A DNA stretch of 35,016 nt from the NCBI RefSeq assembly GCF_005930495.1, contig NZ_SJEX01000055.1, positions 1-35,016 of the forward strand, written 5' to 3'. The DNA comes from Modestobacter excelsi (GTDB lineage Bacteria > Actinomycetota > Actinomycetes > Mycobacteriales > Geodermatophilaceae). Each line of letters opens with the position of its first letter. The stretch's first letter is position 1. The notes beneath the pieces are model-generated. The model did no database searches. It worked only from the letters and a program-made list of their open reading frames with translations, and was not told the origin of the DNA. The position numbers were made by a program, and so were the translations under genes. Below, piece after piece: positions 44 through 13,825 of the stretch.

Positions 44-775
44 TCAGTACGCCGAGGCGTTGTCGACGTGGAAGTTGTAGAGGCTGCGGGCCGAGCCGAA
101 GCGCCTGAAGCCGGCAGGGTCGGCGTCCATCCCGGCGGAGGTGAGGAGCCCGGTCAGCTCGGCGAGGTGCTCGGCGCGCATCTCCTTCTCCACGCAGTCG
201 GCCCCGAGCGACTTCACGGTCCCCTGCACGTAGATGCGGGTCTCGTACAGGGAGTCCCCGAGGGCGTCCCCGGCGTTCCCGCACACCACCAGTCGGCCGG
301 CCTGGCCCATGAACGCGCTCATGTGCCCGACGTCGCCGCCGACGACGATGTCCACGCCCTTCATCGAGATCCCGCATCGTGCTGCGGCCGATCCCTCGAC
401 CACCAGCAACCCGCCGTGCGCGGTCGCGCCGGCCGACTGCGAGGCGTTGCCCCGCACCCGGACGGTGCCGCTCATCATGTTCTCGGCGACGCCCACCCCG
501 GCGTTGCCGCTCACGGTCACCGTCGCGGTCTTGTTCATGCCGGCGCAGTAGTAGCCGACGTGGCCGTCGATCTCGACGGTGAGCGGGGCGTCCAGACCGA
601 CGGCGATGCTGTGCCGGCCGTCGGGGTGCTGCACCTGCCAGCGCGGTGAGGCGGCCGCGACGTCGGCGGCGTGCAGCGCGCGGTTGAGGGCCCGGACGTC
701 GGAGGTGGCCAGGTCCACGACGGTCGGCTCCGGGCCGATCGGGACCTCGATCAGGACGTCGCTCAGCGCTGCCAT
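44..775 (-). CDS. mgsB: N-methylglutamate synthase subunit B-like (GXGXG domain)
   Basis: The 243-residue protein corresponds to the GXGXG beta-helix domain at the C-terminus of glutamate synthase large subunits, encoded here as a separate gene. The Gly-rich turns of the right-handed helix are visible through the middle of the protein (G-N-A-G-V-G, then V-R-G-N-A-S, V-V-E-G-S-A, V-V-G-G-D-V-G-H, V-C-G-N-A-G-D-A-L-G-D). In the mgsABC complex this subunit links the glutaminase and FMN subunits. The ATG at 775 has AGAGG seven bases upstream and lies 13 bp inside the end of mgsA, so the two are probably translationally coupled. The family match is clear. Assignment to N-methylglutamate synthase instead of a split glutamate synthase rests on the adjacent gmaS and the demethylase genes nearby. 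Confidence 0.85.
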   Translation of the reverse strand: MAALSDVLIEVPIGPEPTVVDLATSDVRALNRALHAADVAAASPRWQVQHPDGRHSIAVGLDAPLTVEIDGHVGYYCAGMNKTATVTVSGNAGVGVAENMMSGTVRVRGNASQSAGATAHGGLLVVEGSAAARCGISMKGVDIVVGGDVGHMSAFMGQAGRLVVCGNAGDALGDSLYETRIYVQGTVKSLGADCVEKEMRAEHLAELTGLLTSAGMDADPAGFRRFGSARSLYNFHVDNASAY

Positions 776-1662
776 GCGTAGACCTCTTCCGGCTCGGGCT
801 CGAAGATGCGGGCGGACTCCACGCCGGGCAGGCCGGCCAGAGCGCGGTACTCCGACGCCATCGCCACCCACTGCGGGGTCTCGGCGACGACGGCGGGCTT
901 GCAGGCGATCGCGTCGCGGACGACGGCGAAGCTGTCCCGGTTGGCCACCAGCAGCGTGTAGAAGCCGTCGAACCGCTCGCACAGCAGCTTCAGCGACTTC
1001 TCCAGGTCGTAGCCGGAGGCGAGCTGGGCAGCCACGAACCGGGCACCGACCTCGGAGTCGTTCTCGCTGTCGAAGGTCATCCCGGCGGCGACCAGCTCGC
1101 GGCGGATCGTGGCGTGGTTGGCGAAGGAGCCGTTGTGCACCAGGCACTGGTCCGGCCCGACCGAGAACGGGTGGCTCCCTTGCGGGGTGACCGCGGACTC
1201 GGTGGCCATCCGGGTGTGCGCCACACCCTGCCAGCCCTGCGCCGCGGCCAGGCCGACCTCGGCGGCCAGCAGCTGCGGGTGGCCGACGCCCTTGAGCACG
1301 GCGAGGTCCTCGCCGAACCCGATGACGACGATGCCCGGCAGCGACGCCCGGACCGCGGTGACGAGGGCGTCGACGTCGGTGGGCGCGGAGACCAGGACGG
1401 TCTGCCCGGCGTCCACAACGGCCACGTCGATCCCGAGCAGCTCGGCGGCGACCGTCGCCCGCAGCTCCTCGGCCGGCCGTCCGCCGGGCAGCACGGAGAC
1501 GGTGGCCCAGCCGGGCGGGGACCAGCGGGGATCCCCGTAGACGGCCATCCCGGCGGAGTCCGGTCCGCGCTCGCAGACCTGGCTGAGCATCCCGGTCAGC
1601 AGCTCGCCGAGCCGTGGGTACAGCGAGGGCTCCCGGAGGTGGAGCCCGACGATCCCGCACAT
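763..1662 (-). CDS. mgsA: N-methylglutamate synthase subunit A-like (class II glutamine amidotransferase)
   Basis: This 299-residue protein is a stand-alone class II (Ntn-type) glutamine amidotransferase. It starts M-C-G-I-V-G, so Cys2 becomes the N-terminal nucleophile after Met removal. The family signatures E-R-G-P-D-S-A-G near residue 32, H-T-R-M-A-T and the N-G-S-F motif of the glutamine-binding site are present. In N-methylglutamate synthase this subunit would act on gamma-glutamylmethylamide and release methylamine to the synthase site. It lies 37 bp downstream of gmaS and overlaps mgsB by 13 bp, consistent with a gmaS-mgsABC operon. A GAGAGGA ribosome-binding site lies about 11 nt before the ATG. 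A split glutamate synthase amidotransferase is the alternative reading. Confidence 0.85.
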   Translation of the reverse strand: MCGIVGLHLREPSLYPRLGELLTGMLSQVCERGPDSAGMAVYGDPRWSPPGWATVSVLPGGRPAEELRATVAAELLGIDVAVVDAGQTVLVSAPTDVDALVTAVRASLPGIVVIGFGEDLAVLKGVGHPQLLAAEVGLAAAQGWQGVAHTRMATESAVTPQGSHPFSVGPDQCLVHNGSFANHATIRRELVAAGMTFDSENDSEVGARFVAAQLASGYDLEKSLKLLCERFDGFYTLLVANRDSFAVVRDAIACKPAVVAETPQWVAMASEYRALAGLPGVESARIFEPEPEEVYAWQR

Positions 1663-1699: not shown

Positions 1700-3079
1700 T
1701 CAGAACGCGGTCACGTAGCGGTCGACCTCCCAGGGGGTCACCTGCCCGTGCCACTCGAAGAACTCCTCGCGCTTGAGGTCGGCGAAGTAGCTGCAGACGC
1801 CGGGGCCGACCGCGTCCAGCGCGCCGCCGACCACCGGGTCGGCCTCCAGCGCCTCCACCGCGTGCAGCAGCGTGGGGGGCAGGGTCGGCCGGTCGGTCGA
1901 CGACCCAGGGGCCCCCGGGTCGAGGCCGCGCCGGAGGCCGTCCAGCCCGGCGGCCAGGGCAGCGGCGGCCGCCAGGTAGGGGTTGGCCGACCCGTCGCCG
2001 CCGCGCAGCTCGACCCGGTGGTGGTCGGGCACCCGCAGGAAGTGGGTGCGGTCGTTGCCGCCGTAGGTCGCCGTCCGGGGGGACCAGGTGGCGCCGGACC
2101 GGGTCGAGGTCGCCCCGGTGCGCTTGTAGGAGTTCACCGTCGGGCCGAGCAGCGCCTGCAGCCCGGCGGCGTGCTCGAGCAGCCCGGCGATGAACGAGTA
2201 GGCCGTGGCCGACAGGCCCAGGCCGCGGTCGTCGTCCGGGTCGGGGAAGGTCGGCTCGTCGCCGCGCCATAGGGACAGGTGCATGTGCAGCCCGGTGCCG
2301 GTGCGGTCGGTGAACGGCTTGGGCATGAAGGTGGCGACCATGCCGCGCTCCTCGGCCATCACCGAGAGCAGGTAGCGCAGGGTCACGACGCGGTCGGCGG
2401 TGGTCAGTGCGTCGGCGTAGGCGAAGTTCTGCTCGAACTGGCCGTTGCCGTCCTCGTGGTCGTTGGCGTAGTTGCCCCAGCCGAGGCTGTTGATCGCCTT
2501 GGACACCGACGTGAGGTGGTCGTACATCCGGGTCAGGTCCCGGGCGTCGTAGCAGGGACGGCTGGCGACGTCCTTGGCGTCGGCGACCCGCAGACCACCG
2601 TCGGGGCCCCGCTGCACCAGGAAGTACTCGACCTCGGCACCGACCTTCATCGTCAGGCCGAGCTCGGCGGCGCGGGCCAGCTGCTCCTTGAGCAGCACGC
2701 GCGGCGCGAAGCGCCACGGCCGGCCCTCGACGTGCGGGTCGCAGTGCACGATCGCCAGCCCCGGCCGCAGGAACGGGACCGGCATGTAGGAGCTGGCGTC
2801 GGGGACGGCGACGAGGTCGGGGTCCTTGGGCTCCTGGCCCATCGCGCCGACGGCGTAGCCGGCGAAACCCACCCCCGCCGTCTGCAGCTCCTCGACGGCC
2901 TCGATCGGCACCAGCTTGGCGCAGGGCTTGCCGGTGAGGTCGACGAACAGCGCGAGGATGAACTGCGTGCCGTCGGCACGGGCGCGGGTGGCCAGGTCCG
3001 GCGCGGCGGCCGCGACCGGCGCCGGGACGTCGGCGGCCGGCGCAGGAGCTGCGTCGGGGCGGGCGGCGGTGAGTGACAC
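1700..3079 (-). CDS. gmaS: Gamma-glutamylmethylamide synthetase (glutamine synthetase family)
   Basis: The 459-residue enzyme is of the glutamine-synthetase fold and would ligate methylamine to glutamate using ATP. Visible motifs are G-A-E-V-E-Y-F (147-153, metal ligands), G-N-G-Q-F-E (211-216), F-M-P-K-P-F (251-256), G-T-G-L-H-M-H (261-267), N-S-Y-K-R (316-320) and the C-terminal R-V-E-L-R (355-359). The run S-G-A-T-W-S-P-R followed by Y-G-G-N-D-R-T resembles GmaS/GlnT proteins more than housekeeping GlnA. The start is the GTG at 3079, which has GGAGG eight bases upstream. A longer reading frame continues past it but lacks support. The first 30 residues are Ala/Pro rich. The gene leads the mgs operon and is divergent from the XRE-cupin regulator, with a perfect palindrome 25 bp upstream of its start. 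Confidence 0.88.
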   Translation of the reverse strand: MSLTAARPDAAPAPAADVPAPVAAAAPDLATRARADGTQFILALFVDLTGKPCAKLVPIEAVEELQTAGVGFAGYAVGAMGQEPKDPDLVAVPDASSYMPVPFLRPGLAIVHCDPHVEGRPWRFAPRVLLKEQLARAAELGLTMKVGAEVEYFLVQRGPDGGLRVADAKDVASRPCYDARDLTRMYDHLTSVSKAINSLGWGNYANDHEDGNGQFEQNFAYADALTTADRVVTLRYLLSVMAEERGMVATFMPKPFTDRTGTGLHMHLSLWRGDEPTFPDPDDDRGLGLSATAYSFIAGLLEHAAGLQALLGPTVNSYKRTGATSTRSGATWSPRTATYGGNDRTHFLRVPDHHRVELRGGDGSANPYLAAAAALAAGLDGLRRGLDPGAPGSSTDRPTLPPTLLHAVEALEADPVVGGALDAVGPGVCSYFADLKREEFFEWHGQVTPWEVDRYVTAF

Positions 3080-3103
3080 GGGGGAGACCTCCAGAGCGGG
3101 GTT

Positions 3104-3119
3104 GTTCACCGAGGTGAAC
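3104..3119. promoter_or_regulatory. Palindromic operator between gmaS and the XRE regulator
   Basis: GTTCACC-GA-GGTGAAC is a perfect 16-bp inverted repeat in the 180-bp divergent intergenic region, 25 bp upstream of the gmaS start codon. The 9-mer TGTTCACCG within it recurs at 5525-5533, upstream of the cupin/demethylase operon. The position and symmetry suit a binding site for the neighbouring XRE-cupin regulator. No binding is shown here. Confidence 0.55.
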
Positions 3120-3131
3120 CGCTGTCGCATC

Positions 3132-3140
3132 TGAGTAGAC
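3132..3140 (+). promoter_or_regulatory. TGAGTAGAC motif shared with the amt promoter
   Basis: TGAGTAGAC occurs here, 53 bp upstream of gmaS, and again on the opposite strand at 5348-5356, immediately upstream of amt. It is part of a small dyad, AGAC-N5-GTCT (3137-3149). This is a candidate shared operator for the methylamine genes, seen only as a repeated word. Confidence 0.35.
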
Positions 3141-3247
3141 AGGCCGTCTGTTTCCCCGGCGTTTCGGCGCGGTGCGATTCGTGTTGCCGAGCCCCCCGGA
3201 CGGACGATGCGTGCCCGCGTCCGGGCCGCGACGACGGCCGTCGTGCC

Positions 3248-3260
3248 TATGCTGCCCGCG
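3248..3260 (+). promoter_or_regulatory. Candidate -10 box for leaderless transcription of the XRE regulator
   Basis: TATGCT (3248-3253) fits the actinobacterial TANNNT -10 box and is followed by six bases before the GTG start at 3260. No Shine-Dalgarno sequence precedes that GTG. The geometry is typical of leaderless mRNAs in which transcription begins at the start codon. No convincing -35 box was found. Confidence 0.45.
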
Positions 3261-3874
3261 TGGAGTCCACCCCGGCCGCGGGGCCGAACGACGAGCCACC
3301 CAGCGGGCATCTCGAGGACGTCATCGCCCTCCGGGTGCGGGAGTTCCGACTGGCCAAGGGCATCTCGCTGGCAGAACTGGCCCGGCTCACCGGGATGAGC
3401 AAGGCGATGCTGTCCAAGATCGAGAACGCGCACACCTCGTGCAGCCTGTCCAGCCTGGCCCGGCTCGCCGAGGCTCTGCAGGTGCCGGTCACGGCGCTGT
3501 TCCGCGGGGTGGACGCCGAGCGCGAGGCCGTCTACACACCCGCCGGGCACGGTGCGCAGATCGTCCGCCGCGGGAGCAACGTGGGCCACCTGTACCAACT
3601 GCTGGGCGCACTGCGCGGCGAGCACAAGAGGCTCGAGCCGCTCCTGGTCACCCTCGACGAGGCCAGCGAGGTCTTCCCCCTCTTCCAGCACGCCGGGACC
3701 GAGTTCCTCTACATGCTCGAGGGCGTGATGGTGTACGGCCACGGCGAAGCCCGGTACACCATGCGCGTCGGTGACTCGCTGATCTTCGACGGTGAGGGCC
3801 CCCACGGTCCGGCCGAACTGCTCGAGACCCCCGTCCAGTTCCTGACCGTCACCGGTTTCGGCCACGTCGTCTGA
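3260..3874 (+). CDS. XRE-family regulator with C-terminal cupin sensor
   Basis: The 204-residue protein has an N-terminal XRE helix-turn-helix (about residues 23-78, with M-S-K-A-M-L-S-K-I-E-N as the recognition region) and a C-terminal cupin_2 barrel (about 130-197). Proteins of this design bind DNA as dimers and sense a small ligand in the cupin. The gene is divergent from gmaS and convergent with amt, so it most likely regulates the methylated-amine genes, and possibly itself, through the palindrome at 3104-3119. The GTG start lacks a ribosome-binding site but lies six bases after a TATGCT -10 box. Neither the ligand nor whether it represses or activates can be told from sequence. Confidence 0.85.
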   Translation: MESTPAAGPNDEPPSGHLEDVIALRVREFRLAKGISLAELARLTGMSKAMLSKIENAHTSCSLSSLARLAEALQVPVTALFRGVDAEREAVYTPAGHGAQIVRRGSNVGHLYQLLGALRGEHKRLEPLLVTLDEASEVFPLFQHAGTEFLYMLEGVMVYGHGEARYTMRVGDSLIFDGEGPHGPAELLETPVQFLTVTGFGHVV

Positions 3875-3982: not shown

Positions 3983-5335
3983 TCAGTCGGGCCTGGCGGC
4001 TCCCTGCGACGCGGACCCGGCGACCAGCCGCTCGGCCGAGGCGATCACAGCCTCCGGCGTGGGCCGCGTGCCGGGGGGGTGCGGCCCGCCCTCGAGGTCG
4101 TAGGCCGCCTCCGCGTGCTCGGCCAGGTCGATCCCGCCGACCTCCGCCTCCTTCGACACCCGCAGGCCGATCGTCTTGTGCACGGCCAGGGCGAGCAGCA
4201 GGGTGACGACGAACGAGTAGCCCAGCACGGCGAGCACCGCGACCGTCTGCACCCCGAGCAGTTCCAGACCGCCGCCGTAGAGCAGCCCGTCGCGTCCGCT
4301 TGGCGCCTCTGCCGAACCGAGCAGCCCCACCAGCAGGGTGCCGATGACGCCGCCCACCAGGTGCACGCCGACGACGTCGAGGGCGTCGTCGTAGCCGAAC
4401 CGGTACTTCAGCGAGATCGCCAGCGGGCAGATGGCGCCGGCGACCGCGCCGACGGCGAGTGCGCCCATCGGGGTGACCGCCCCGCAGGCGGGGGTGATCG
4501 CGACGAGGCCGGCGATCAGGCCGGACATGGCGCCCAGCGTGGTCGGGTGGCCGTCCCGCAACCGCTCGACGAGCAGCCAGGCCAGCAGGCCGGCGCAGGC
4601 GGCGTTGAAGGTGTTGAGCATGACCACCGAGGAGGCGTTGCCGGCTGCCAGCGCCGAGCCACCGTTGAAGCCGAGCCAGCCGAAGAAGAGGATGCCCGCA
4701 CCGAGCACCGTGAACGGCAGGTTGTTCGGCTTGGACTGCCGGGGCCAGCCCGACCGCTTGCCGAGGACCAGGACGAGGGCGAGCCCGGCCACGCCGGCGT
4801 TGACGTGCACCGCCGTCCCGCCGGCGAAGTCCACCGCCTTCAGGTCGTTGGCGATCCAGCCGCCCACCGTGCTGCCGTCGGCCGAGTCGAAGGCGAACAC
4901 CCAGTGCGCGACGGGGAGGTAGACGAACACCGACCACAGGCCGGCGAACAGCAGCCACGGGCCGAAGCGCACCCGGTCGGCGACGGCACCGGCGATGAGG
5001 GCCGTCGTGATCGTGATGAAGAGGGCCTGGAAGACCGCGACGAGCGCGGGCGGGAGCGGGGCGTCGGGACTGCCGGCGACCAGCTGGCCGAGGCCGAGGT
5101 ACTCGGTCACGTTCCCCAGCAGGCCGAGGCCGCCGTAGGAGGTCCCGAACACGGCCGAGTAGCCGAAGACGGTCCAGAGGACGCCGACGACGGCGACGGC
5201 ACCGAACACCATCATGATCATGTTCAGCATGCCGCGCGAGCCCACCATCCCCCCGTAGAAGAGGGCGAGGCCCGGGATCATGAGCGCAACCGCCATGGTC
5301 GCCGCCAGGATGAATGCGGTGCTTGCTGCGTCCAC
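3983..5335 (-). CDS. amt: Amt-family ammonium/methylammonium transporter
   Basis: This 450-residue membrane protein has about eleven transmembrane segments and the Amt/Mep/Rh signatures. The pore twin histidines are His144 in L-P-V-A-H-W-V and His325 in G-V-H-L-V-G-G. The family segment N-T-F-N-A-A-C-A-G-L is near 241, and Y-G-D-A-L-D is replaced by Y-D-D-A-L-D near 315. The start is the GTG at 5335, with AAAGG six bases upstream. No glnK/glnB gene follows, which is unusual for amt. Its place between the regulator and the demethylase operon suggests it imports ammonium or methylammonium for, or escaping from, this pathway. The promoter shares the TGAGTAGAC word with the gmaS region. Confidence 0.93.
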   Translation of the reverse strand: MDAASTAFILAATMAVALMIPGLALFYGGMVGSRGMLNMIMMVFGAVAVVGVLWTVFGYSAVFGTSYGGLGLLGNVTEYLGLGQLVAGSPDAPLPPALVAVFQALFITITTALIAGAVADRVRFGPWLLFAGLWSVFVYLPVAHWVFAFDSADGSTVGGWIANDLKAVDFAGGTAVHVNAGVAGLALVLVLGKRSGWPRQSKPNNLPFTVLGAGILFFGWLGFNGGSALAAGNASSVVMLNTFNAACAGLLAWLLVERLRDGHPTTLGAMSGLIAGLVAITPACGAVTPMGALAVGAVAGAICPLAISLKYRFGYDDALDVVGVHLVGGVIGTLLVGLLGSAEAPSGRDGLLYGGGLELLGVQTVAVLAVLGYSFVVTLLLALAVHKTIGLRVSKEAEVGGIDLAEHAEAAYDLEGGPHPPGTRPTPEAVIASAERLVAGSASQGAARPD

Positions 5336-5347
5336 AGAAGGCCTTTC

Positions 5348-5384
5348 GTCTACTCAACGTGTCCGATGTTGCGTGTCAGTAGAC
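5348..5384. promoter_or_regulatory. Dyad upstream of amt (GTCTACT ... AGTAGAC)
   Basis: Seven-base inverted arms GTCTACT (5348-5354) and AGTAGAC (5378-5384) flank 23 bp, with a nested CAAC/GTTG pair at 5355-5358 and 5368-5371. The left arm is part of the TGAGTAGAC word also found near gmaS. The element begins 13 bp upstream of the amt start codon, where a repressor could block initiation, or an mRNA hairpin could form in the leader. The function is inferred. Confidence 0.4.
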
Positions 5385-5473
5385 GGACGACATGTTGCAT
5401 CCGACCACTCCGGCGGATGACGTTCGCGTGACGCGGCGGGCGACCGGCGACCGGCGCCGATCGAGGTGGACAC

Positions 5474-5581: not shown

Positions 5582-5941
5582 ATGGACACCAGCACCATCG
5601 TCTTCGGCCACGCCAGCGGCACCTACGAGGGCCTCCCGAGCATGGACGTCCCGGGCGTCAACGCCTTCATCGGCGACACCTTCGCCAACCCGAAGGGCTC
5701 CGAGCTCTGCTCCGGGTTCTTCGAGCTCCAGGCCGGCGAGCCGCTCGAGTACACCTACACCTACGACGAGATGAAGGTCGTCGTGGAGGGCGAGTTCCAC
5801 CTCACCGACCTCGACAGCGGCCAGCAGGTCGTGGCCCGGCCGAAGGACGTGCTCTTCTTCCCCAAGGGCTCGCGGATTCGGTTCGAGACCCCCGAGCGGG
5901 CGCTGGGCTTCTACACCGGTCAGCGGTCCTTCGCGCCCTGA
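5582..5941 (+). CDS. Small single-domain cupin (EutQ-like)
   Basis: The 119-residue protein is a single cupin barrel resembling the EutQ-like/cupin_3 group. The core runs from about residue 40 (F-F-E-L-Q-A-G) through Y-D-E-M-K-V-V-V-E-G-E-F to K-G-S-R-I-R-F-E-T near the C-terminus. It lacks the classical three-His metal set, so metal binding is uncertain. It is the first gene of the demethylase operon, 5 bp upstream of the first DmmA-like gene, with GAGGAG about nine bases before its ATG. It may be an accessory or sensor for the demethylase. Its specific role is unknown, but its leading position suggests it is made together with the six genes that follow. Confidence 0.8.
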   Translation: MDTSTIVFGHASGTYEGLPSMDVPGVNAFIGDTFANPKGSELCSGFFELQAGEPLEYTYTYDEMKVVVEGEFHLTDLDSGQQVVARPKDVLFFPKGSRIRFETPERALGFYTGQRSFAP

Positions 5942-5946
5942 CCCGC

Positions 5947-6486
5947 ATGACCCTCGAGCACACCAGCGTCCCGCACTGGGCAGCGACCCCACCCGCTGTC
6001 CCCGCCACCGCCCGCCAGGTCACGGTGCTCGGCATCGGGTCGGCGGCGGGGCCGGTCGTCCGCGGGTGGGAGTTCGCCTGCCGTGAGCTGGGCCTGCGGC
6101 CGGCCGTCCTGCTCGCCGGGTCGGCCGAGGAGGCGATGCCCCGGTTGGCCGTGCAGCTCCAGGGCGCGTCGGTCGGCTGGCGGCTGCTCGTGGCGGGCCC
6201 GGAGGCCGACGTCCTCCGGGCCCGCTCCCGGGCCCTCGAGGCCGGCGCCGTCCCGGCCGAGGTGCTCACCTTCGTGACCGGGGTGCCGGTCCGCCGGGTG
6301 CACTGCGCCCACTGCCGCACCGAGACCGAGACCGGCGCAGCGGTGGGCGGCACCTGCCCCTGCGCCGGCTGCGGCCGGACCCTGCACGTCTACCACCACG
6401 TGTCCCGTCGCCTGGGCGCCTACCTCGGCTACATGATCGACGCCGAGGACGCCGCCCCGGCCCACGTCTCGGGAGGCCCCGCATGA
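5947..6486 (+). CDS. DmmA-like dimethylamine monooxygenase subunit, copy 1
   Basis: The 179-residue protein resembles the DmmA family found with heme-dependent secondary-amine demethylases. The N-terminal part contains V-A-G-P-E-A-D-V-L (82-90). This recalls the C-G-P segment of NAD-binding modules in ferredoxin reductases. The C-terminal part has a four-cysteine cluster, C120-x2-C123 and C139-x2-C142 with an extra Cys137, as in a zinc ribbon or rubredoxin-like knuckle. It starts 5 bp after the cupin stop and its stop overlaps the ATG of the reductase by 4 bp. The same fold is repeated at 8454-9008. The metal and exact role cannot be told from sequence. Confidence 0.8.
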   Translation: MTLEHTSVPHWAATPPAVPATARQVTVLGIGSAAGPVVRGWEFACRELGLRPAVLLAGSAEEAMPRLAVQLQGASVGWRLLVAGPEADVLRARSRALEAGAVPAEVLTFVTGVPVRRVHCAHCRTETETGAAVGGTCPCAGCGRTLHVYHHVSRRLGAYLGYMIDAEDAAPAHVSGGPA

Positions 6487-7469
6487 CGACTCTCTCCCCG
6501 TCCGCCCTGGCACCGACGCGAGCACCCGCCGACCGCGGGGCGCTGCGCCTGCGCGTCACCGACCTGCACGAGGCGGCTCCCGGGATCCGCTCGGTCACCT
6601 TCGTCGCCGCGGACGGCGGACCGCTCCCGGGCCACCCGGCCGGCAGCCACCTGGTGCTGACCTGCGGCGACCGCCGCAACGCCTACTCCCTCACCGGGCC
6701 CGGCGTCGCACCGGAGAGCTACACGATCTCGGTGCTGTTGCTGCCTGCCGGCCAGGGCGGCTCGCAGTTCGTCCACCGGCTCGAGGTGGGGGACGTCGTC
6801 GACGCCGATCGGCCGCGCAGTGCCTTCGCCCCCGTGTCGACCGCGCGGCACCACCTGCTCGTCGCCGGCGGGATCGGCATCACGCCGATGCTGTCGCATG
6901 CCCGGGAGGCCGTCCGCTGGGGCCGCGGCTTCACCCTGCTGTACGGCCACCGGGCGGGGGCAGCGGCACACCTGCACGAGCTGCGGCAGTTGTGCGGCGA
7001 CCGCCTCGAGGAGCATCCCGACCGGGAGGTGTTCCTCGCCCGCATCAGCCAGGCACTGGCCACCGCCCGGCTCGGCACGCACCTCTACGTGTGCGGGCCG
7101 GCGCCGCTGCTGGACGCCGTCCTGCAGCGTGCCGAGCAGCTCGGCTGGCCTCCGGAGCGGGTGCACACCGAGCGGTTCTCCGCAGCCGACCTCGACCCGG
7201 GCGAGCCGTTCGTGGCGTCACTCGTCCGGTCCGGAGGCCAGGTCGTCGTCCCCTCCGGGGTGAGCCTCCTGGCGGCCCTCGAGGGCGAGGGCGTCCGGGT
7301 GCCCAACATGTGCCGGCAGGGCGTCTGCGGCGAGTGCCGGGTGCCCGTGCTCGCCGGCCTCCCGCTCCACCGCGACCTCTTCCTCAGCGAGGCGGAGCGG
7401 GCCGCCGGCGACAGCGTCATGTGCTGCGTCTCCCGCAGCACCGGTCCGACCCTGGAGCTCGATCTGTGA
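6483..7469 (+). CDS. PDR/VanB-type reductase of the amine demethylase, copy 1
   Basis: The 328-residue electron-transfer protein follows the phthalate dioxygenase reductase order: flavin domain (R-N-A-Y-S-L at 65-70), NAD-binding domain (G-G-I-G-I-T-P at 129-135, Y-V-C-G-P at 202-206) and a C-terminal plant-type [2Fe-2S] domain with C277, C282, C285 and C315. It should pass electrons from NAD(P)H to the heme demethylase encoded next. Its ATG overlaps the preceding stop by 4 bp, and its own stop overlaps the GTG of the demethylase by 4 bp, so coupled translation is likely. It corresponds to the reductase subunit (DmmB-like) of dimethylamine monooxygenase. Confidence 0.87.
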   Translation: MTTLSPSALAPTRAPADRGALRLRVTDLHEAAPGIRSVTFVAADGGPLPGHPAGSHLVLTCGDRRNAYSLTGPGVAPESYTISVLLLPAGQGGSQFVHRLEVGDVVDADRPRSAFAPVSTARHHLLVAGGIGITPMLSHAREAVRWGRGFTLLYGHRAGAAAHLHELRQLCGDRLEEHPDREVFLARISQALATARLGTHLYVCGPAPLLDAVLQRAEQLGWPPERVHTERFSAADLDPGEPFVASLVRSGGQVVVPSGVSLLAALEGEGVRVPNMCRQGVCGECRVPVLAGLPLHRDLFLSEAERAAGDSVMCCVSRSTGPTLELDL

Positions 7470-8457
7470 CCACCACCCACCCGCGCACCGGTGCACTGCC
7501 CGGGCGTATCGCCTCCTTCCCCTTCCCGTTCCCCACCGACCAGTACCGGTACAGCACCAACGTCGAGCCCGCCGGCGGGCGAACCGCACCGTCGCCGGCA
7601 GTTGGGGAGAGCACGTCCTGCACGTGGACGAGTCCTACGAGTCCGACAGCGCCGAGTGCCTCGCCCTGCTGGCGACCGACCCGTCGCGGTGCCAGGAGCT
7701 GCCGCACATGCGGCCGGCGTGCTGGGACGCCATGACGTTCGTGATGTCCGAACTGCAGGAGGCCCGGCCCGACGCCTTCAACCTGGAGCGGCTCGACGTA
7801 GACACCTGGCGGTGGCGCAACCAGCTGCTGGGCATCGAGCAGGAGTTCGTGTACGGCGACGACCGGACGCTGCCGACCGACCCGCTGCGGTTCATCGCAC
7901 CCCAGGTGCAGGACGACCTGGTGCTGCTCGACCAGCGCGAGGGATCCCTGTGGGCGGACGCCGGGGTGGTGACCGCGGCCGCCGACTGGTCGATGCGCTT
8001 CGACGTGGGCATGAGCTTCCTGGAGATCCACGGACCGGTTCCCCGGGTGCACCCGGCCGGCGTGGTCGACCGGGCGCAGGAGTTCCTGATGCGCCTGCAA
8101 CCGGGGGAGGCCTACCGCCGCACCAACTGGACGATGACGGTCGGCCGGCGCCTGGACACGGCCACCGAGACCTATCCCGAGTGGGGACCGGACCGGCGGC
8201 TGGTGCTCGGCCAGGACATCGGCACCCGGCTCCACCTGCGGGTCGAGGTCCAGCACCTGGTCCGGCTGCCCAGCTCCGGTGCGGTGCTGTTCCTCATCCG
8301 CACGTACCTGCTCCCGCTCCAGGACATCGCCCGGGTGCCCGCCTGGAGGGACCGTCTCGCGGCCGTGCTGGCGGAGCTCCCGCAGGACATGGCCGACTAC
8401 AAGGGCATCGCCCGCTACCGGCACGCTGCGGTGGACTGGCTGCGGAGCGCGGCATGA
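7466..8457 (+). CDS. Heme-dependent oxidative N-demethylase (DUF3445), copy 1, apparent frameshift
   Basis: This is a paralogue of the protein at 9946-10929. The first 35 or so codons from the GTG at 7466 (ending Y-S-T-N-V-E-P) are in one frame, and the rest (from about V-A-G-S-W-G-E-H-V) is in another. Compared with the second copy, 32 nt instead of 33 separate the V-E-P and W-G-E-H codons, so one nucleotide is missing within about 7571-7590. Everything after that is intact, including E-I-H-G-P-V-P, R-R-T-N-W, V-Q-H-L-V-R-L-P, I-R-T-Y and Y-K-G-I. A GTG at 7624 could restart translation but would omit conserved N-terminal residues. The enzyme should oxidatively remove a methyl group from a secondary amine. 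The shift may be a real mutation or a sequencing error. Confidence 0.78.
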
Positions 8458-9008
8458 CCGCACTGCTCCCCGCACCGGCACCCGCGGCGGCGGACCGGCA
8501 GACCAGCGTCCCGGTGTGGCCGGTGGCAGCCCCGGCGCTGGACGCGACAGGGCGCGCGTTCCTGCTGGTGGCCGTCGGCCCGGCCGCGGAGCCCGTCGTC
8601 GCCGACTGGGCGGCTGGAGCAGTCGACCAGGGCCGCCCGGTCCAGCGGATGACCGTCGACGGACGGACCGACGACCGTGCCCTCGCCGACCTCGTCCGGC
8701 GGCTGGACCAGCTGGGCGTCGGGGCACGGCTGGCGGTCTGCGGCCCGGAGGCCGACGTCCTCGCCGTCGCCGCGGCGGCCCGGCGGGTCGGCCTCCTCCC
8801 CGAGGAGATCGCGACGTTCGCCGTCGACCGAGGCGACCTCAGCGTCTTCTGCGTGCACTGCGAGGTCACCTCGCGCATGGCCGCGGCACCCGGCGCGGAG
8901 GTCACCTGCCCGGGTTGCCGGCGGCGCATCGAGGTGCACGAGCACGTCTCCGGTCACCGGGGCAGCTACCTCGCCTCGGCGATCGCCCTCCCGGAGGGCG
9001 ACGCATGA
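8454..9008 (+). CDS. DmmA-like dimethylamine monooxygenase subunit, copy 2
   Basis: The 184-residue paralogue of 5947-6486 has the same layout. V-C-G-P-E-A-D-V-L at 95-103 is even closer to a ferredoxin-reductase C-G-P motif than in copy 1. A Cys4 knuckle follows, C133-x2-C136 and C152-x2-C155. The shared tail H-V-S followed by R-G-S-Y-L matches R-R-L-G-A-Y-L in copy 1. The first 30 residues are Ala/Pro rich. The ATG overlaps the stop of the first demethylase by 4 bp, and the stop overlaps the next reductase by 4 bp. The divergence between the copies shows the duplication is old. Confidence 0.8.
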   Translation: MTALLPAPAPAAADRQTSVPVWPVAAPALDATGRAFLLVAVGPAAEPVVADWAAGAVDQGRPVQRMTVDGRTDDRALADLVRRLDQLGVGARLAVCGPEADVLAVAAAARRVGLLPEEIATFAVDRGDLSVFCVHCEVTSRMAAAPGAEVTCPGCRRRIEVHEHVSGHRGSYLASAIALPEGDA

Positions 9009-9949
9009 GCGGCTCCCCGGCGGTCTGCCTGCGGGTGGCCCAGATCGACCAGGTCACCGCCGGCGTCCGGCAGATCGTGCTGCAGGACCCAGACGGGCGC
9101 CGGCTGCCCGGGTACGCGCCGGGCAGCCACCTGACCGTCACCGCCGGCGGCAAGCGCAACGCCTACTCGCTGACCGGGTCGGGCATCGCCCCCGACGACT
9201 ACCGGATCTCCGTCCTGCGCACCCGCGGCGGCGAGGGGTCCGGTTGGCTGCACGACAGCCTCCGGGTGGGCGACCTGCTCCCTGTGGAGGGCCCGCGGTC
9301 GGCCTTCCCGTTCGAGCTGGCATCGACGCGTTCACTGCTGGTCGCGGCCGGGATCGGGGTCACCCCGATCCTGTCGCACCTGCGGGCCGCCCGGATCTGG
9401 GGCCGGCCGGTCGAGGTGGTGTACGGCTACCGCCCCGGTGCGGCGGCGCACCTGGACGAGGTGCGTGAGCTGGCCGGGCCCGACCTGGTCGAGGCCCCCG
9501 GTCGGGCCGCTCTCGCGCAGGCCCTGCTGGAGCGGCTGGCGTGCCAGCCGTGGGGGACGCACGCCTACGCGTGCGGCCCGACCGCCGTCCTGGAGCTGTT
9601 CACCGCCACGGCGCGGGACGCCGGCTGGCCGCCGGTCCGGCTGCACGTCGAGCACTTCCAGGCGCCCGAGCTGGCACCCGGCCGGCCGTTCGCGGCGTTG
9701 CTGCGCCGCACCGGCGTGCAGCTGGCCGTACCCAGCGGCACCAGCCTGCTCGAGGCGGCCCTGGACGCCGGCGTCGACGTCCCCAACCTGTGCCGTCGAG
9801 GCGTCTGCGGCCAGTGCCTGGTGCCGGTCGCCGGGGGCCGGGTCGACCACCGGGACCTGGTCCTCGACGAGACCGAGAGACAGGCCCACACCAGCATGCT
9901 GGCCTGCGTGTCGCGGGCCGCCGACGACCACCTGGAGCTCGACCTGTGA
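9005..9949 (+). CDS. PDR/VanB-type reductase of the amine demethylase, copy 2
   Basis: The 314-residue reductase is paralogous to 6483-7469. Its flavin-binding R-N-A-Y-S-L is at 51-56, NAD-binding A-A-G-I-G-V-T-P at 114-121, A-C-G-P at 189-192, and the C-terminal [2Fe-2S] ligands are C263, C268, C271 and C301. It lacks the 14-residue N-terminal extension of copy 1. It is coupled by 4-bp overlaps to the DmmA-like gene before it and the demethylase after it. Each triad therefore carries its own electron supply, and cross-feeding cannot be judged from sequence. Confidence 0.87.
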   Translation: MSGSPAVCLRVAQIDQVTAGVRQIVLQDPDGRRLPGYAPGSHLTVTAGGKRNAYSLTGSGIAPDDYRISVLRTRGGEGSGWLHDSLRVGDLLPVEGPRSAFPFELASTRSLLVAAGIGVTPILSHLRAARIWGRPVEVVYGYRPGAAAHLDEVRELAGPDLVEAPGRAALAQALLERLACQPWGTHAYACGPTAVLELFTATARDAGWPPVRLHVEHFQAPELAPGRPFAALLRRTGVQLAVPSGTSLLEAALDAGVDVPNLCRRGVCGQCLVPVAGGRVDHRDLVLDETERQAHTSMLACVSRAADDHLELDL

Positions 9950-10929
9950 GTGACCTCTCCCGCCTGCCGTGGCCCTTCGCCCCCGGCGAGACCACGTTCC
10001 GCTACGCGGTCAACGTCGAGCCGGCGCGACGCCGGATCGAGACCCCCGCCGGCCACTGGGGCGAGCACGTCATCGACCTCGGCGACGACTACCTCGAGCA
10101 GATGTCGCTGCGCCGTGAGCTGCTGGCCCGCGACCCCGGACGGCGCCAGGTGCTGCCGCACATGGAGCCGGCCTGCTGGGACATGCTCCTGTTCCTGCTC
10201 CGCGAGCTGGTCGCGACCCGGCCCGATGCCATGCACCTGTCCGCGGAGGGCCGCGCGTTCCACTGGCGCAACGACCTGTTGGGCATCGAGCAGGCCTTCG
10301 TGCTCGGGGACGCCACCACGCTGCCCACCGACCCGCTCACCTGGATCGGCTGCCAGGTGCCCGACGACGTCCTCATGGTCAGCGACCGCGGGGGGCGGTT
10401 GTGGTTCGACGCCGCGCTGGTCACCTGGGCCGCAGCGTGGTCGGTGAAGTTCGACGTCGGCATGCACCTGGACGAGATCCACGGACCGGTGCCCCGGCTG
10501 AACGAGCAGGGTGTGACCAGCCGGGCCACCCGGTTCATGCGCAGCCTGACCTCCGACGTGGTCTACCGCCGGGTCAACTGGACCTTCTCCGCCCACGGCT
10601 CGCCGCGGCGGGACATCAGCCTGGAGACCAAGCCGGACTGGGACGCCGACATCCCGCGGCTCATCCGGGACGGCGACTGGCCCCGGCTGCAGCTGCGGAT
10701 CGAGCTGGAACACCTCACGCGACTGCCGCTGACCGGCACGCTCACGTTCAACATCCGGACCTACATGGCCCCCCTCGGGGAGATCGCCCTGATCCCGGAG
10801 TGGCGCGACCAACTGGCTGCGGTCGTCGCCGAACTGCCCGAGGACATCGCGGGCTACAAGGGCATCGCGCCCTACCGTGACGACGTCGTCGCGTACCTGA
10901 CCGGGGCAGCCCGCTCGGCCGTCGCCTGA
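9946..10929 (+). CDS. Heme-dependent oxidative N-demethylase (DUF3445), copy 2
   Basis: This intact 327-residue member of the heme-dependent oxidative N-demethylase family (DUF3445) starts at a GTG that overlaps the reductase stop by 4 bp. Conserved blocks include W-G-E-H (38-41), P-H-M-E-P-A-C-W-D (71-79), L-L-G-I-E-Q (111-116), L-P-T-D-P-L (126-131), E-I-H-G-P-V-P (177-183), R-V-N-W (209-212), L-E-H-L-T-R-L-P (254-261) and Y-K-G-I (304-307). Characterised relatives convert dimethylamine to methylamine and formaldehyde using O2 and electrons from the reductase. It is the last gene of the operon. With copy 1 frameshifted, this may be the only functional demethylase of the pair. Confidence 0.87.
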   Translation: MSDLSRLPWPFAPGETTFRYAVNVEPARRRIETPAGHWGEHVIDLGDDYLEQMSLRRELLARDPGRRQVLPHMEPACWDMLLFLLRELVATRPDAMHLSAEGRAFHWRNDLLGIEQAFVLGDATTLPTDPLTWIGCQVPDDVLMVSDRGGRLWFDAALVTWAAAWSVKFDVGMHLDEIHGPVPRLNEQGVTSRATRFMRSLTSDVVYRRVNWTFSAHGSPRRDISLETKPDWDADIPRLIRDGDWPRLQLRIELEHLTRLPLTGTLTFNIRTYMAPLGEIALIPEWRDQLAAVVAELPEDIAGYKGIAPYRDDVVAYLTGAARSAVA

Positions 10930-11284: not shown

Positions 11285-12466
11285 TCACCAGGTCGGCAGG
11301 CTGCCGGGGTACAGCAGCGTGACGATCCCACCCCAGAGGTCGGCCGCGGGGACGGCCTCACCGTCGGCCGCATCGACCATCACCACCACGCTCGCCTTCT
11401 CCTCCGGCAGGTGGAAGACCATGTCGCTGTAACCGAAGATCGAGCCGTTGTGGCCGACCCAGTTCCCGAGCTGGATCACGCCGAGGCCGTACTGCGCCCG
11501 GATGCCGGTGGAGGTGAGCGGCGTCCACTCCTGGCGCAGCCGGGCGGTCCCCGGGGCGAGGCCCGCTCCGGTCGCCAGCTGCTCGGCGTAGCGCATCATG
11601 TCCGGCACCGTGGAGATGACCGCACCGGCGGTGAACGGGACCACCGGGTTGCTGAGCGTGACGTCCCGTGGCTCATCCGCTGCAGGGTCCGCGGGCGCCA
11701 GCTGACTGTCGGTGTTCATGTACCCGTGGCTGAAGGGCTCCGGCAGGGCCGCGGTCGTGGGATACGACGTCTCCTCGAGGCCGAGGTCATCGATGACCGA
11801 GGTGATGGCCTGCTGTGCCGAGCGGCCGGTGACCCGCTCGATGACCAGCCCCAGCAGCACGTACTCCGAGTTGGAGTACACGGTCGCCTGACCGGGTGCG
11901 GCGGCCTCGTCGGCGTGCGCGCGGATGATGTCGAGGACGTCGTAGGGGGACCATCCCGGCAGGAGCGGATCCGCCACGTACCGCGCCAGGAAGTGCTCGT
12001 CCGCGACGAAGTCGTACACGCCGCCGCGCATGCCCAGCAGGTCGTGGATCGTGATCTCGTCCCCGTGGGGGATGTCGGGGACGTACTCCTCCAGGGTGTC
12101 GTCGAGGGACACCTTCCCCTGCTCGGCGAGGCGCAGCACCGCCTGGGCGGTGAAGGTCTTGGTCACGCTGGCGATGCGGTAGTGCATGTCGGGAGTCATC
12201 GGGGTCCCCGCGGTGTCGGCGGTCCCGTAGGCCTGCAGGTAGTCCCCCCGGACCGGGTCGGAGATGCCGACCACCGCACCGGTGATGCCGTTGGTCAGCG
12301 CGGCCCGGGCCAGCTCGTCGACCTGTGCGGCGAGCTCCGGGTCGAGGGTCGCGGCCGGGGGAGGAGCGGACTCGGCGAGGGCCGCGGGGGTGGTCGTGAA
12401 GCCCGTCGTACCGGCCCCGGCGAGCAGGGCGAGTGCGAGGGCGGCGGGGCGCATCCATCGGCGCAT
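11285..12466 (-). CDS. Exported serine hydrolase (class C beta-lactamase/DD-peptidase family)
   Basis: The 393-residue protein belongs to the beta-lactamase/R61 DD-carboxypeptidase superfamily. The active-site triad motifs are S100-V-T-K103, Y197-S-N199 and H339-N-G341. An N-terminal signal peptide (M-R-R-W-M-R then an Ala/Leu-rich core, cleavage near residue 32) indicates export. The ATG at 12466 was chosen because GGAGGAG precedes it and the signal peptide starts there. A longer frame upstream would bury the signal. Ninety bp separate it from the homologous gene upstream on the same strand. Substrates may be cell-wall peptides or esters. A true beta-lactamase is possible but not implied. 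Confidence 0.85.
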   Translation of the reverse strand: MRRWMRPAALALALLAGAGTTGFTTTPAALAESAPPPAATLDPELAAQVDELARAALTNGITGAVVGISDPVRGDYLQAYGTADTAGTPMTPDMHYRIASVTKTFTAQAVLRLAEQGKVSLDDTLEEYVPDIPHGDEITIHDLLGMRGGVYDFVADEHFLARYVADPLLPGWSPYDVLDIIRAHADEAAAPGQATVYSNSEYVLLGLVIERVTGRSAQQAITSVIDDLGLEETSYPTTAALPEPFSHGYMNTDSQLAPADPAADEPRDVTLSNPVVPFTAGAVISTVPDMMRYAEQLATGAGLAPGTARLRQEWTPLTSTGIRAQYGLGVIQLGNWVGHNGSIFGYSDMVFHLPEEKASVVVMVDAADGEAVPAADLWGGIVTLLYPGSLPTW

Positions 12467-12556
12467 GGGGAACAGCTCCTCCCGTGGAGGTGACGGTGTG
12501 GTGTCCCCGTGGCCGAGGGGCCCGTCCGTGCTGACCCGGTCTGCCACGGGTGCCGA

Positions 12557-13825
12557 TCAGTCGGCGTAGAGCTCGGCGATCACCGCCTTGGCGAGCTCGA
12601 CGGCCGGGCCTTCGCCGTTGGGTGCGGGGGCGGTGGAGGCCCAGGTGACGACGGTGATGTCCCGGACCGGGTCGTAGCCCATGAAGGAGTTGGTCCCGGG
12701 CAGCTCACCGCTGTGTCCGTACACGGGGCCGAAGCTGGCCAGGCCGAGCCCGTAGCCGGGGCTGGCCGGGTCGTCCGGGTCCAGCGGCTGGACGCTGGCG
12801 ATCCGCTCCTGTTGCAGCTGCGGGCTGAGCAGGCCCCCGCCGACCAGTTCCTCCACGTAGTCGGCGAGGTCCGGCGCGGTGGAGATCCCGGCGCCCGCGG
12901 TCCACCCCCAGGAGGGGTTGGCGTCGGTGACGTCCATCGGCTCCAAGGTGCCGGCGCGGGCTGCGGCCTGGACCTCCGGTGGCAGCACGAGGCTGTCGAT
13001 GGTCTCCACGTTCGTGCCGAAGGTGTAGGTCCGCGGGTGCGGCTCCGGGATCGAGGCGTCGGTCAGCGCCGGGAAGGAGGTCTCGCCCAGGCCCAGCGGG
13101 TCGAAGATCCGCTCCTGGAAGGCCTGCTCCACCGGGACCCCGGTGAGCTGTTCGATGATCACGCCCAGCAGCACGTAGTTGGTGTTGGAGTACAGGAACC
13201 CCTCGCCCGGAGGGAAGGCGGGAGGCTCGGCGAGGCCGATCGCGAGCAGTTCCTCCGGGTTCCACACCCGGCCGGGGTTGCTGTCCATCTGCTCGTTCAG
13301 TTCCAGGTCGGTGGTGTAGTTGGCCAGCCCGCTGCTCATGTCCAGCAGCTGGGCGATGGTGATGTTCTCCCCGTTGGGCACGTCCGGGCGGTACCACGAC
13401 ACCGGGTCGTCCAGGCCGATCCTGCCCTCGTCGACCAGCTGCAGGATCACCGTGGCGGTCATGGTCTTGGTGTTGCTGCCGATCCGGACGTGGTCGGCGA
13501 GCGTGACCGGCTCGGTGCCGTGCCAGGTCCGGGTGCCCATCGTGGTGGCCCAGTCGCCGAGCTCCGGCGACCGCACCAGGACGACGGCGCCGGTGATCGC
13601 GAGGTCCGTCATGAGCCGGTCGAGCTCGGGCTGGACCGCCGCGGCGTACGCCGGGACCTCCCACGGCGCCGGACCCTCCCACGGCGCCGCCGCACCACCC
13701 GGCCACGCGTTCGCCGGGGTGGGAGCCGCGACCAGCAACGCGACCGCCGTGGTCGCCATCCAGGCGGCCCGTGCACCGGGCGGCCGGCGACGGTACGACC
13801 CGCGCGAGCGCTCTGCAGCTGTCAT
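12557..13825 (-). CDS. Exported serine hydrolase, paralogue (class C beta-lactamase/DD-peptidase family)
   Basis: The 422-residue paralogue of the downstream gene has S117-N-T-K120, Y212-S-N214 and H371-S-G373. Basic residues 8-19 followed by a hydrophobic stretch and A-N-A near residue 40 form a signal peptide. A short Pro/Trp-rich linker (A-P-W-E-G-P-A-P-W-E) precedes the catalytic domain and is encoded by a small duplicated DNA word. GGAAGG precedes the ATG. Together with the gene at 11285 and the PBP4-like gene upstream it forms a run of three same-strand penicillin-recognising enzymes. The substrate is unknown. Confidence 0.85.
   Translation of the reverse strand: MTAAERSRGSYRRRPPGARAAWMATTAVALLVAAPTPANAWPGGAAAPWEGPAPWEVPAYAAAVQPELDRLMTDLAITGAVVLVRSPELGDWATTMGTRTWHGTEPVTLADHVRIGSNTKTMTATVILQLVDEGRIGLDDPVSWYRPDVPNGENITIAQLLDMSSGLANYTTDLELNEQMDSNPGRVWNPEELLAIGLAEPPAFPPGEGFLYSNTNYVLLGVIIEQLTGVPVEQAFQERIFDPLGLGETSFPALTDASIPEPHPRTYTFGTNVETIDSLVLPPEVQAAARAGTLEPMDVTDANPSWGWTAGAGISTAPDLADYVEELVGGGLLSPQLQQERIASVQPLDPDDPASPGYGLGLASFGPVYGHSGELPGTNSFMGYDPVRDITVVTWASTAPAPNGEGPAVELAKAVIAELYAD

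Follow-up and report, generated by a model that had tools for sequence, protein, structure and literature searches.

An operon of two anciently diverged HODM-family N-demethylase sets in Modestobacter excelsi, with a candidate second substrate

Contig NZ_SJEX01000055.1 of the Modestobacter excelsi draft assembly GCF_005930495.1 (178 contigs) carries on its plus strand a tandem of two three-gene sets of the HODM / dimethylamine monooxygenase family, in the order cupin-A1-B1-C1-A2-B2-C2, and raises the question of what a second set would do beside the first. The entire contig (35,016 bases) was analysed and is called the window; A1 to C2 occupy positions 5947–10929, with a EutQ-like cupin ahead (5582–5941). 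The answer preferred here, with a probability of about one half, is that the operon encodes two heme-PAS N-demethylases, of which set 2 would act on a substrate of its own (the leading guess being trimethylamine), with a shared electron supply and probably a shared assembly, and with methylamine passed on to GmaS/MgsABC. The genes of the operon are as follows.

5582–5941, plus strand: EutQ-like small cupin, first gene of the operon (PF06249, 3.5e-13; PF05899)
5947–6486, plus strand: A1, DmmA-family subunit of the canonical type 1 set (NF041259, 113.9 bits, cut-off 60); its stop overlaps the B1 start
6483–7469, plus strand: B1, type 1 flavin/[2Fe-2S] reductase (Fer2, NAD_binding_1, DmmA-like_N), with a 4-base overlap at each end
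7466–8457, plus strand: C1, type 1 HODM alpha (heme PAS), frame-broken (PF11927, 6.7e-65 on 7624–8457)
8454–9008, plus strand: A2, DmmA-family subunit of the type 2 set (NF041259, 96.7 bits, cut-off 60)
9005–9949, plus strand: B2, type 2 flavin/[2Fe-2S] reductase (Fer2, 8.5e-14; phthalate dioxygenase reductase, 2PIA, among the PDB matches)
9946–10929, plus strand: C2, type 2 HODM alpha (heme PAS) (PF11927, 6.4e-54, 183.6 bits, cut-off 25)

This gene order, proposed in a first-pass annotation of the sequence, was recovered by the family scans (PF06249, NF041259, Fer2, PF11927), and the 4-base stop/start overlaps that it placed from 6483 onward were confirmed by direct reading at 6483, 7466, 8454, 9005 and 9946, that is, at all five junctions from A1/B1 onward. 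Junction scoring by script returned four of the five, the frame break in C1 causing B1/C1 to be scored as a gap, though a GTG is present at 7466. The same annotation had counted two complete sets; set 2, A1 and B1 are intact, but the broken frame of C1 had been missed, and the operon as assembled holds five intact subunit genes and one broken. Matches to PF11927 in the whole genome are C1 and C2 only.

Set 2 carries the features of the family in each of its subunits. C2 lies far above the PF11927 cut-off for an alpha subunit and has the predicted fold of HODM alpha over nearly the whole chain, with 38% identity to it (PDB 5LTE/5LTH/5LTI). Among the columns with at least 97% invariance over 117 rows, C2 and 5LTE differ in a single one (Y212 in 5LTE, F197 in C2); F is usual there and stands in every entry of the five-row alignment, so that it is 5LTE that departs and not C2. 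This comparison is one of conservation by column. The expected partners are also present: B2 as a flavin/[2Fe-2S] reductase, and A2 as a DmmA-family subunit above its NF041259 cut-off, with an AlphaFold2 model of pLDDT 94.7. In the DmmA-type subunit C133, H135, C136, C152, C155 and H164 are invariant (30 rows). Both A1 (5947–6486) and A2 (8454–9008) resemble a flavin-reductase NAD-binding domain joined to a Cys/His-rich knuckle, and because of this likeness the A and B subunits may share an ancestor.

The two sets are far from identical, 37% for A, 49% for B and 52% for C over the aligned parts, and the trees of A, B and C that had been proposed as a check on their co-evolution placed them apart. 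C2 falls in a single clade of 27 rows, with support of 100/100 and a stem of 0.85 changes per column, in a tree of 116 alpha rows that has no sure root and in which monophyly of the type-1 rows is not established. A2 belongs to one clade of 26 rows (SH-aLRT 100) and B2 to one clade of 21 rows (SH-aLRT 99, two of the rows being pieces of a single gene); each of these trees has 73 rows, taken from the two-type genomes and a selection of others. The exception to the B2 clade is the reductase adjoining A2-C2 in Rhodococcus jostii and in a Rhodococcus metagenome-assembled genome (MAG), which is placed among the Rhodococcus B1 sequences. A recent tandem duplication, already doubted in the first-pass annotation, which had found the copies clearly diverged, was rejected on these identities and the separate old clades. 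A2, B2 and C2 each represent an old actinobacterial clade ("type 2"), and the separation of these clades, together with co-inheritance in several genera, supports an old duplication of the whole HODM/dimethylamine monooxygenase set as the origin of the tandem.

Somewhere between about 7575 and 7620, C1 loses the reading frame that opens at the GTG at 7466; the remainder (7624–8457) lies in another frame. An intact C1 of 330 amino acids is found at the same place in the closest relative fetched, Blastococcus sp. MG754426 (locus L010). Between the window and L010 the ratio of nonsynonymous to synonymous substitution (dN/dS) is lower for the C1 remainder (0.185) than for C2 (0.239), with values of 0.292 (B1), 0.293 (B2), 0.724 (A1), 0.505 (A2) and 0.171 (cupin) for the other genes. 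The N-terminal motif is in frame in 82 of 84 C1-type rows, the window being counted among the 84 and L089 among the 82 after its motif was confirmed by reading (script count 81); the exceptions are the window and L086. Since C1 of L010 is intact and the remainder in the window is under purifying selection, the break either arose recently or is an error of assembly. An old decay of the first copy was rejected on the dN/dS and on the motif count, and its decay in most relatives, which the first-pass annotation had named as a possible outcome, did not appear. A programmed frameshift was thought unlikely, as L010 reads through in a single frame.

The broken C1, and an apparent break at the same end of the C1-type gene of L086, are what would be expected if the sets were redundant, both taking dimethylamine for the sake of gene dosage, with C1 being lost here and set 2 carrying the activity. 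This explanation is quite improbable: the dN/dS of the C1 remainder is below that of C2, nearly all C1-type rows keep the motif in frame, and the identities and separate clades are far from those of dosage copies.

To place the operon among its relatives, an alignment of five alpha subunits was used to scan one genome per species in 84,980 species; 121 relatives were obtained and the best 80 loci were kept. Because a sequence had to match either of two peptide patterns exactly to be retrieved by the scan, the counts are lower bounds. Among the best 80 of the 121 loci, a C2-type alpha is present in 25 and a C1-type alone in 55. Both types lie within the fetched stretch in 22 of the 25, belonging to Blastococcus (1), Rhodococcus (5), Gordonia (6), Nocardioides (5), Cryobacterium (4) and Mycobacterium (1). 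The cupin accompanies all 22 of these fetched two-type loci, against none of the four type-2-only loci (fetched stretches). At least two PF11927 genes were detected in 21 of the 23 type-2 genomes or records searched for this family, the exceptions, with a single PF11927 gene of type 2, being a Rhodococcus MAG (G099) and Nesterenkonia sedimenti (G100); once four two-type loci outside that genome-wide search are added (L020, L023, L024 and L031), both types are present in 25 of 27. The second alpha was typed as C1 in R. jostii and on a plasmid of Candidatus Mycobacterium methanotrophicum, where cupin-A1-B1-C1 stands about 25 kb from A2-B2-C2. On this same plasmid the match to B2 is split in two (L094:10436-13296), and B2 and C2 are missing from an incomplete gene table; the type 2 set may be decaying there.

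In a separate sample of 396 genomes from the phylum, PF11927 was found in 26, the window's own included, and two complete neighbouring PF11927 genes in two, the window's genome and G394 (untyped); other double entries have neighbouring coordinates and were taken for fragments of a single gene. PF11927 has no match in 22 further genomes of the genus, five of them at most 80% complete, so the operon is accessory here and possibly acquired. In keeping with a place in the Geodermatophilaceae, the alpha subunit of one genome of the same family equals that of Trujillonella endophytica. The paired operon is rare, and it is conserved in several related actinobacterial genera. Its nested distribution, with type 2 nearly always beside type 1 and type 1 often alone, together with the kept invariant residues, favours a second, presumably active, enzyme.

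The most telling results of the analysis are a fusion and a gene loss. Wherever A2 follows C1 (17 loci), the two are overlapped or fused: in all six Gordonia loci they form one reading frame with a linker, both domains being recognised in the 525-amino-acid product of L025, and in the other 11 the junction is a 4-base overlap. B2 is absent from all five two-type Rhodococcus loci, whose order is cupin-A1-B1-C1-A2-C2. Across these five whole genomes the best B2 match is the B1 of the operon (48–53%) and the next has at most 41% identity; for comparison, most B2-type genes of other genera show 46–55% identity to B2. As the operons lack B2 and no closer match is found genome-wide, C2 in these Rhodococcus strains must, unless it is idle, be supplied by B1 or by a more distantly related reductase. 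The fused junctions, the overlapping ones and the missing B2 are three signs that the sets function in union, and the fusions (6 loci) and the operons without B2 (5 loci) favour a shared assembly.

The same observations could be taken further, to a single obligate heteromer in which both alpha subunits, with A1, A2 and one or two reductases, are needed, C2 being perhaps a regulatory or a second catalytic chain; the C1 and C2 parts of the alpha tree, which broadly mirror each other among two-type genomes (judged by eye), agree with this. On the other hand, type 1 is alone in 55 of the 80 loci, G099 and G100 have type 2 as their one PF11927 gene, the two sets are divergently transcribed in four Cryobacterium loci, and they stand apart in R. 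jostii and on the M. methanotrophicum plasmid. These type-2-only genomes and detached loci argue against an obligate heteromer, which is considered unlikely. One type-1-only locus (L070) lies in a genome that also carries the pair.

Regarding substrates, set 1 is likely to act on dimethylamine, since type 1 stands alone beside gmaS/mgs-like genes in several genera. Set 2 was approached through the genes for the N-oxide route. Full-length trimethylamine N-oxide demethylase (Tdm), counted at 68% identity or more to the protein of the Streptomyces locus L066, itself over the NCBIfam cut-off, is present in 1 of 24 type-2 genomes against 6 of 24 type-1-only genomes; trimethylamine monooxygenase (Tmm) is present in 2 of 24 against 7 of 24. 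The sample of 48 genomes was chosen, and omits L013, L031 and 31 of the 55 type-1-only loci. This distribution lends weak support to trimethylamine as the substrate of set 2.

Several points weigh against the preferred reading. The differences in Tdm and Tmm are not significant (Fisher p 0.097 and 0.137, relatedness uncorrected; p is unchanged without the L066 genome, source of both queries), and Tdm and Tmm are also missing from the majority of the selected type-1-only genomes (18/24 and 17/24). Neither type-2-only genome (G099, G100) has a gmaS match at E 1e-60. The type 2 set of R. jostii lies apart from gmaS, beside CoA-dehydratase and AMP-ligase genes, which fits a plain methylamine pathway poorly. 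The clade-specific changes of type 2 may or may not line the active-site pocket; the substrate of set 2 is one that we infer; and C1 is frame-broken in this assembly.

The surroundings in R. jostii and the missing gmaS matches are also what would be expected if the substrate of set 2 had nothing to do with trimethylamine (an N-methyl amino acid, a longer N-alkylmethylamine or a natural-product intermediate) and its link to set 1 were shared origin and regulation only. In R. jostii the neighbours of B-A2-C2 are a pair of 2-hydroxyglutaryl-CoA-dehydratase-like genes and genes for a BadF-type ATPase, an SDR and an AMP-ligase, which is unusual company for an amine demethylase. Against this, both types occur together in 25 of 27 type-2 genomes or records and in one stretch in 22 of 25 fetched loci, and these two-type stretches mostly hold gmaS/mgs-like genes or Amt; such an unrelated substrate is improbable. 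A Rhodococcus MAG has surroundings that look like those of type 2 in R. jostii, judged by gene starts (loci L011 and L013).

Returning to the reading of two N-demethylases with separate substrates, set 1 (A1-B1-C1), of the canonical kind, would most likely convert dimethylamine to methylamine. Set 2 (A2-B2-C2), anciently diverged, would most likely demethylate another small N-methylamine, since its invariant residues are kept but clade-specific changes are present; if this were trimethylamine, yielding dimethylamine, the two sets would perform consecutive steps. Each C would use O2 and electrons from NAD(P)H, passed on through the flavin and the [2Fe-2S] centre of a B subunit, to oxidise a single N-methyl group, with formaldehyde as the product. 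One B subunit could probably be shared between the sets, which are probably joined in one assembly via their A subunits, and the methylamine formed would enter the GmaS/MgsABC route. The most specific form of this scheme, in which the type-2 alpha demethylates trimethylamine directly, with no N-oxide route through Tmm and Tdm, and hands dimethylamine to the type-1 alpha within the same DmmA-held assembly, one reductase being able to feed both, is doubtful and put forward as a speculative working model.

The formaldehyde would probably be released and taken up by the mycothiol route. With one proteobacterial DmmD as query, no match at 1e-6 was obtained in the fetched stretches of the 26 type-2 loci, some of which stop at a contig end, and the window has no open gene for a folate-binding DmmD/GcvT subunit; in four of five chosen proteobacterial plasmid loci, an annotated aminomethyltransferase (DmmD-like) adjoins the set. 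The GcvT-type matches of the window's own genome (one in contig C129, two in C146) lie within reading frames of 933 to 1251 residues, and the C146 stretch resembles a sarcosine oxidase cluster, judged from gene starts only. An S-(hydroxymethyl)mycothiol dehydrogenase follows C2 in Mycobacterium sp. NAZ190054 (L080), and the window's genome has one over the cut-off on another contig. Given the lack of a DmmD-like match near type-2 sets and the presence of this dehydrogenase, free formaldehyde and the mycothiol route are the likely end. In L080 the two-set operon is preceded by a reductase and a Rieske oxygenase, the latter most similar in the PDB to carnitine monooxygenase 6Y8J (L080:2290-4380); still further upstream is a transporter that matches NCS1/CytX weakly.

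The genes upstream of the operon in the window are the following.

3983–5335, minus strand: Amt ammonium-transporter family protein, divergent neighbour (TIGR00836, 422.1 bits, cut-off 343.3)
3260–3874, plus strand: XRE-cupin regulator (HTH_3, Cupin_2)
1700–3130, minus strand: glutamine-synthetase-type enzyme, probable gmaS (gamma-glutamylmethylamide synthetase), named by context (PF00120, 6.7e-80); start codon unsettled
44–1662, minus strand: probable mgsB (GXGXG) and mgsA (class II amidotransferase) of N-methylglutamate synthase, named by context (PF01493, PF13522)

A gmaS-type gene adjoins the dmm sets in relatives. An mgsC-like gene, also named by context, sits at the start of another contig (G000:C14:35-1327), and for this reason the N-methylglutamate cluster is probably cut by the contig break. 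Downstream of the operon, on the opposite strand, a pair of PF00144 beta-lactamase-fold proteins (11288–13825) are likely serine hydrolases, unrelated to the operon. Upstream of Amt there is a GTCTAC...GTAGAC pair with a 31-base offset (window 5348–5386), found also upstream of Amt in three of four Geodermatophilaceae loci examined (L035, L053 and L081; not in L010). A single copy of the element precedes gmaS in the window (3134–3142) and in L081, and AGTAGACRG occurs three times in the window against 0.14 expected. The element appears to resemble a nitrogen-regulator (GlnR-type) box.

Compared with HODM itself, C2 has the same predicted fold and the invariant residues common to both; the window differs by its two complete sets in one operon, by the changes specific to the type-2 clade and by the lack of a folate (GcvT/DmmD) subunit found nearby, while the HODM holoenzyme reportedly binds folate. 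HODM is said to have been described, in a 2016 Nature paper, as the first PAS-domain enzyme, and to our knowledge dimethylamine is the only substrate with which it has been associated. The second clade, conserved and equipped with A, B and C partners of its own, offers a natural experiment on substrate change in the HODM fold. If type 2 does take trimethylamine, it would be a direct aerobic bypass of the Tmm/Tdm pathway in actinobacteria, and the Gordonia fusion and the Rhodococcus operons without B2 make the subunit architecture directly testable.

With the DmmDABC system of Ruegeria pomeroyi and the related sets of Methylocella and Paracoccus, as presented in the available passages of PMC5520151, the window has the three-gene oxygenase core in common; that system consists of one set with DmmD, whereas the window has two sets, an extra cupin and no DmmD in the fetched stretches. 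According to the same passages, DmmABC without DmmD is active in Escherichia coli, and amtB and gmaS appear in the legend of the pathway figure for DmmDABC. No description of a single operon with two sets was found in the open-licence literature searched, including the available parts of PMC5520151, PMC9800807, PMC8875376, PMC13390433 and PMC11647477.

Among actinobacterial relatives, the Geodermatophilaceae loci L035, L053, L081 and L084 and Streptomyces L066 have the same cupin-A1-B1-C1 order, with gmaS/mgs-like or Amt neighbours, and lack A2-B2-C2; in L066, Tmm and Tdm adjoin the operon instead. The closest system is that of Blastococcus sp. MG754426 (L010), with the same cupin-A1-B1-C1-A2-B2-C2 order and with C2 84% and C1 83% identical to those of the window; it differs in its intact C1 and in an Amt only 50% identical to that of the window. 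The family (HODM) is already known, and the two-type operon appears as an ancient variant of it, conserved in some Actinobacteria.

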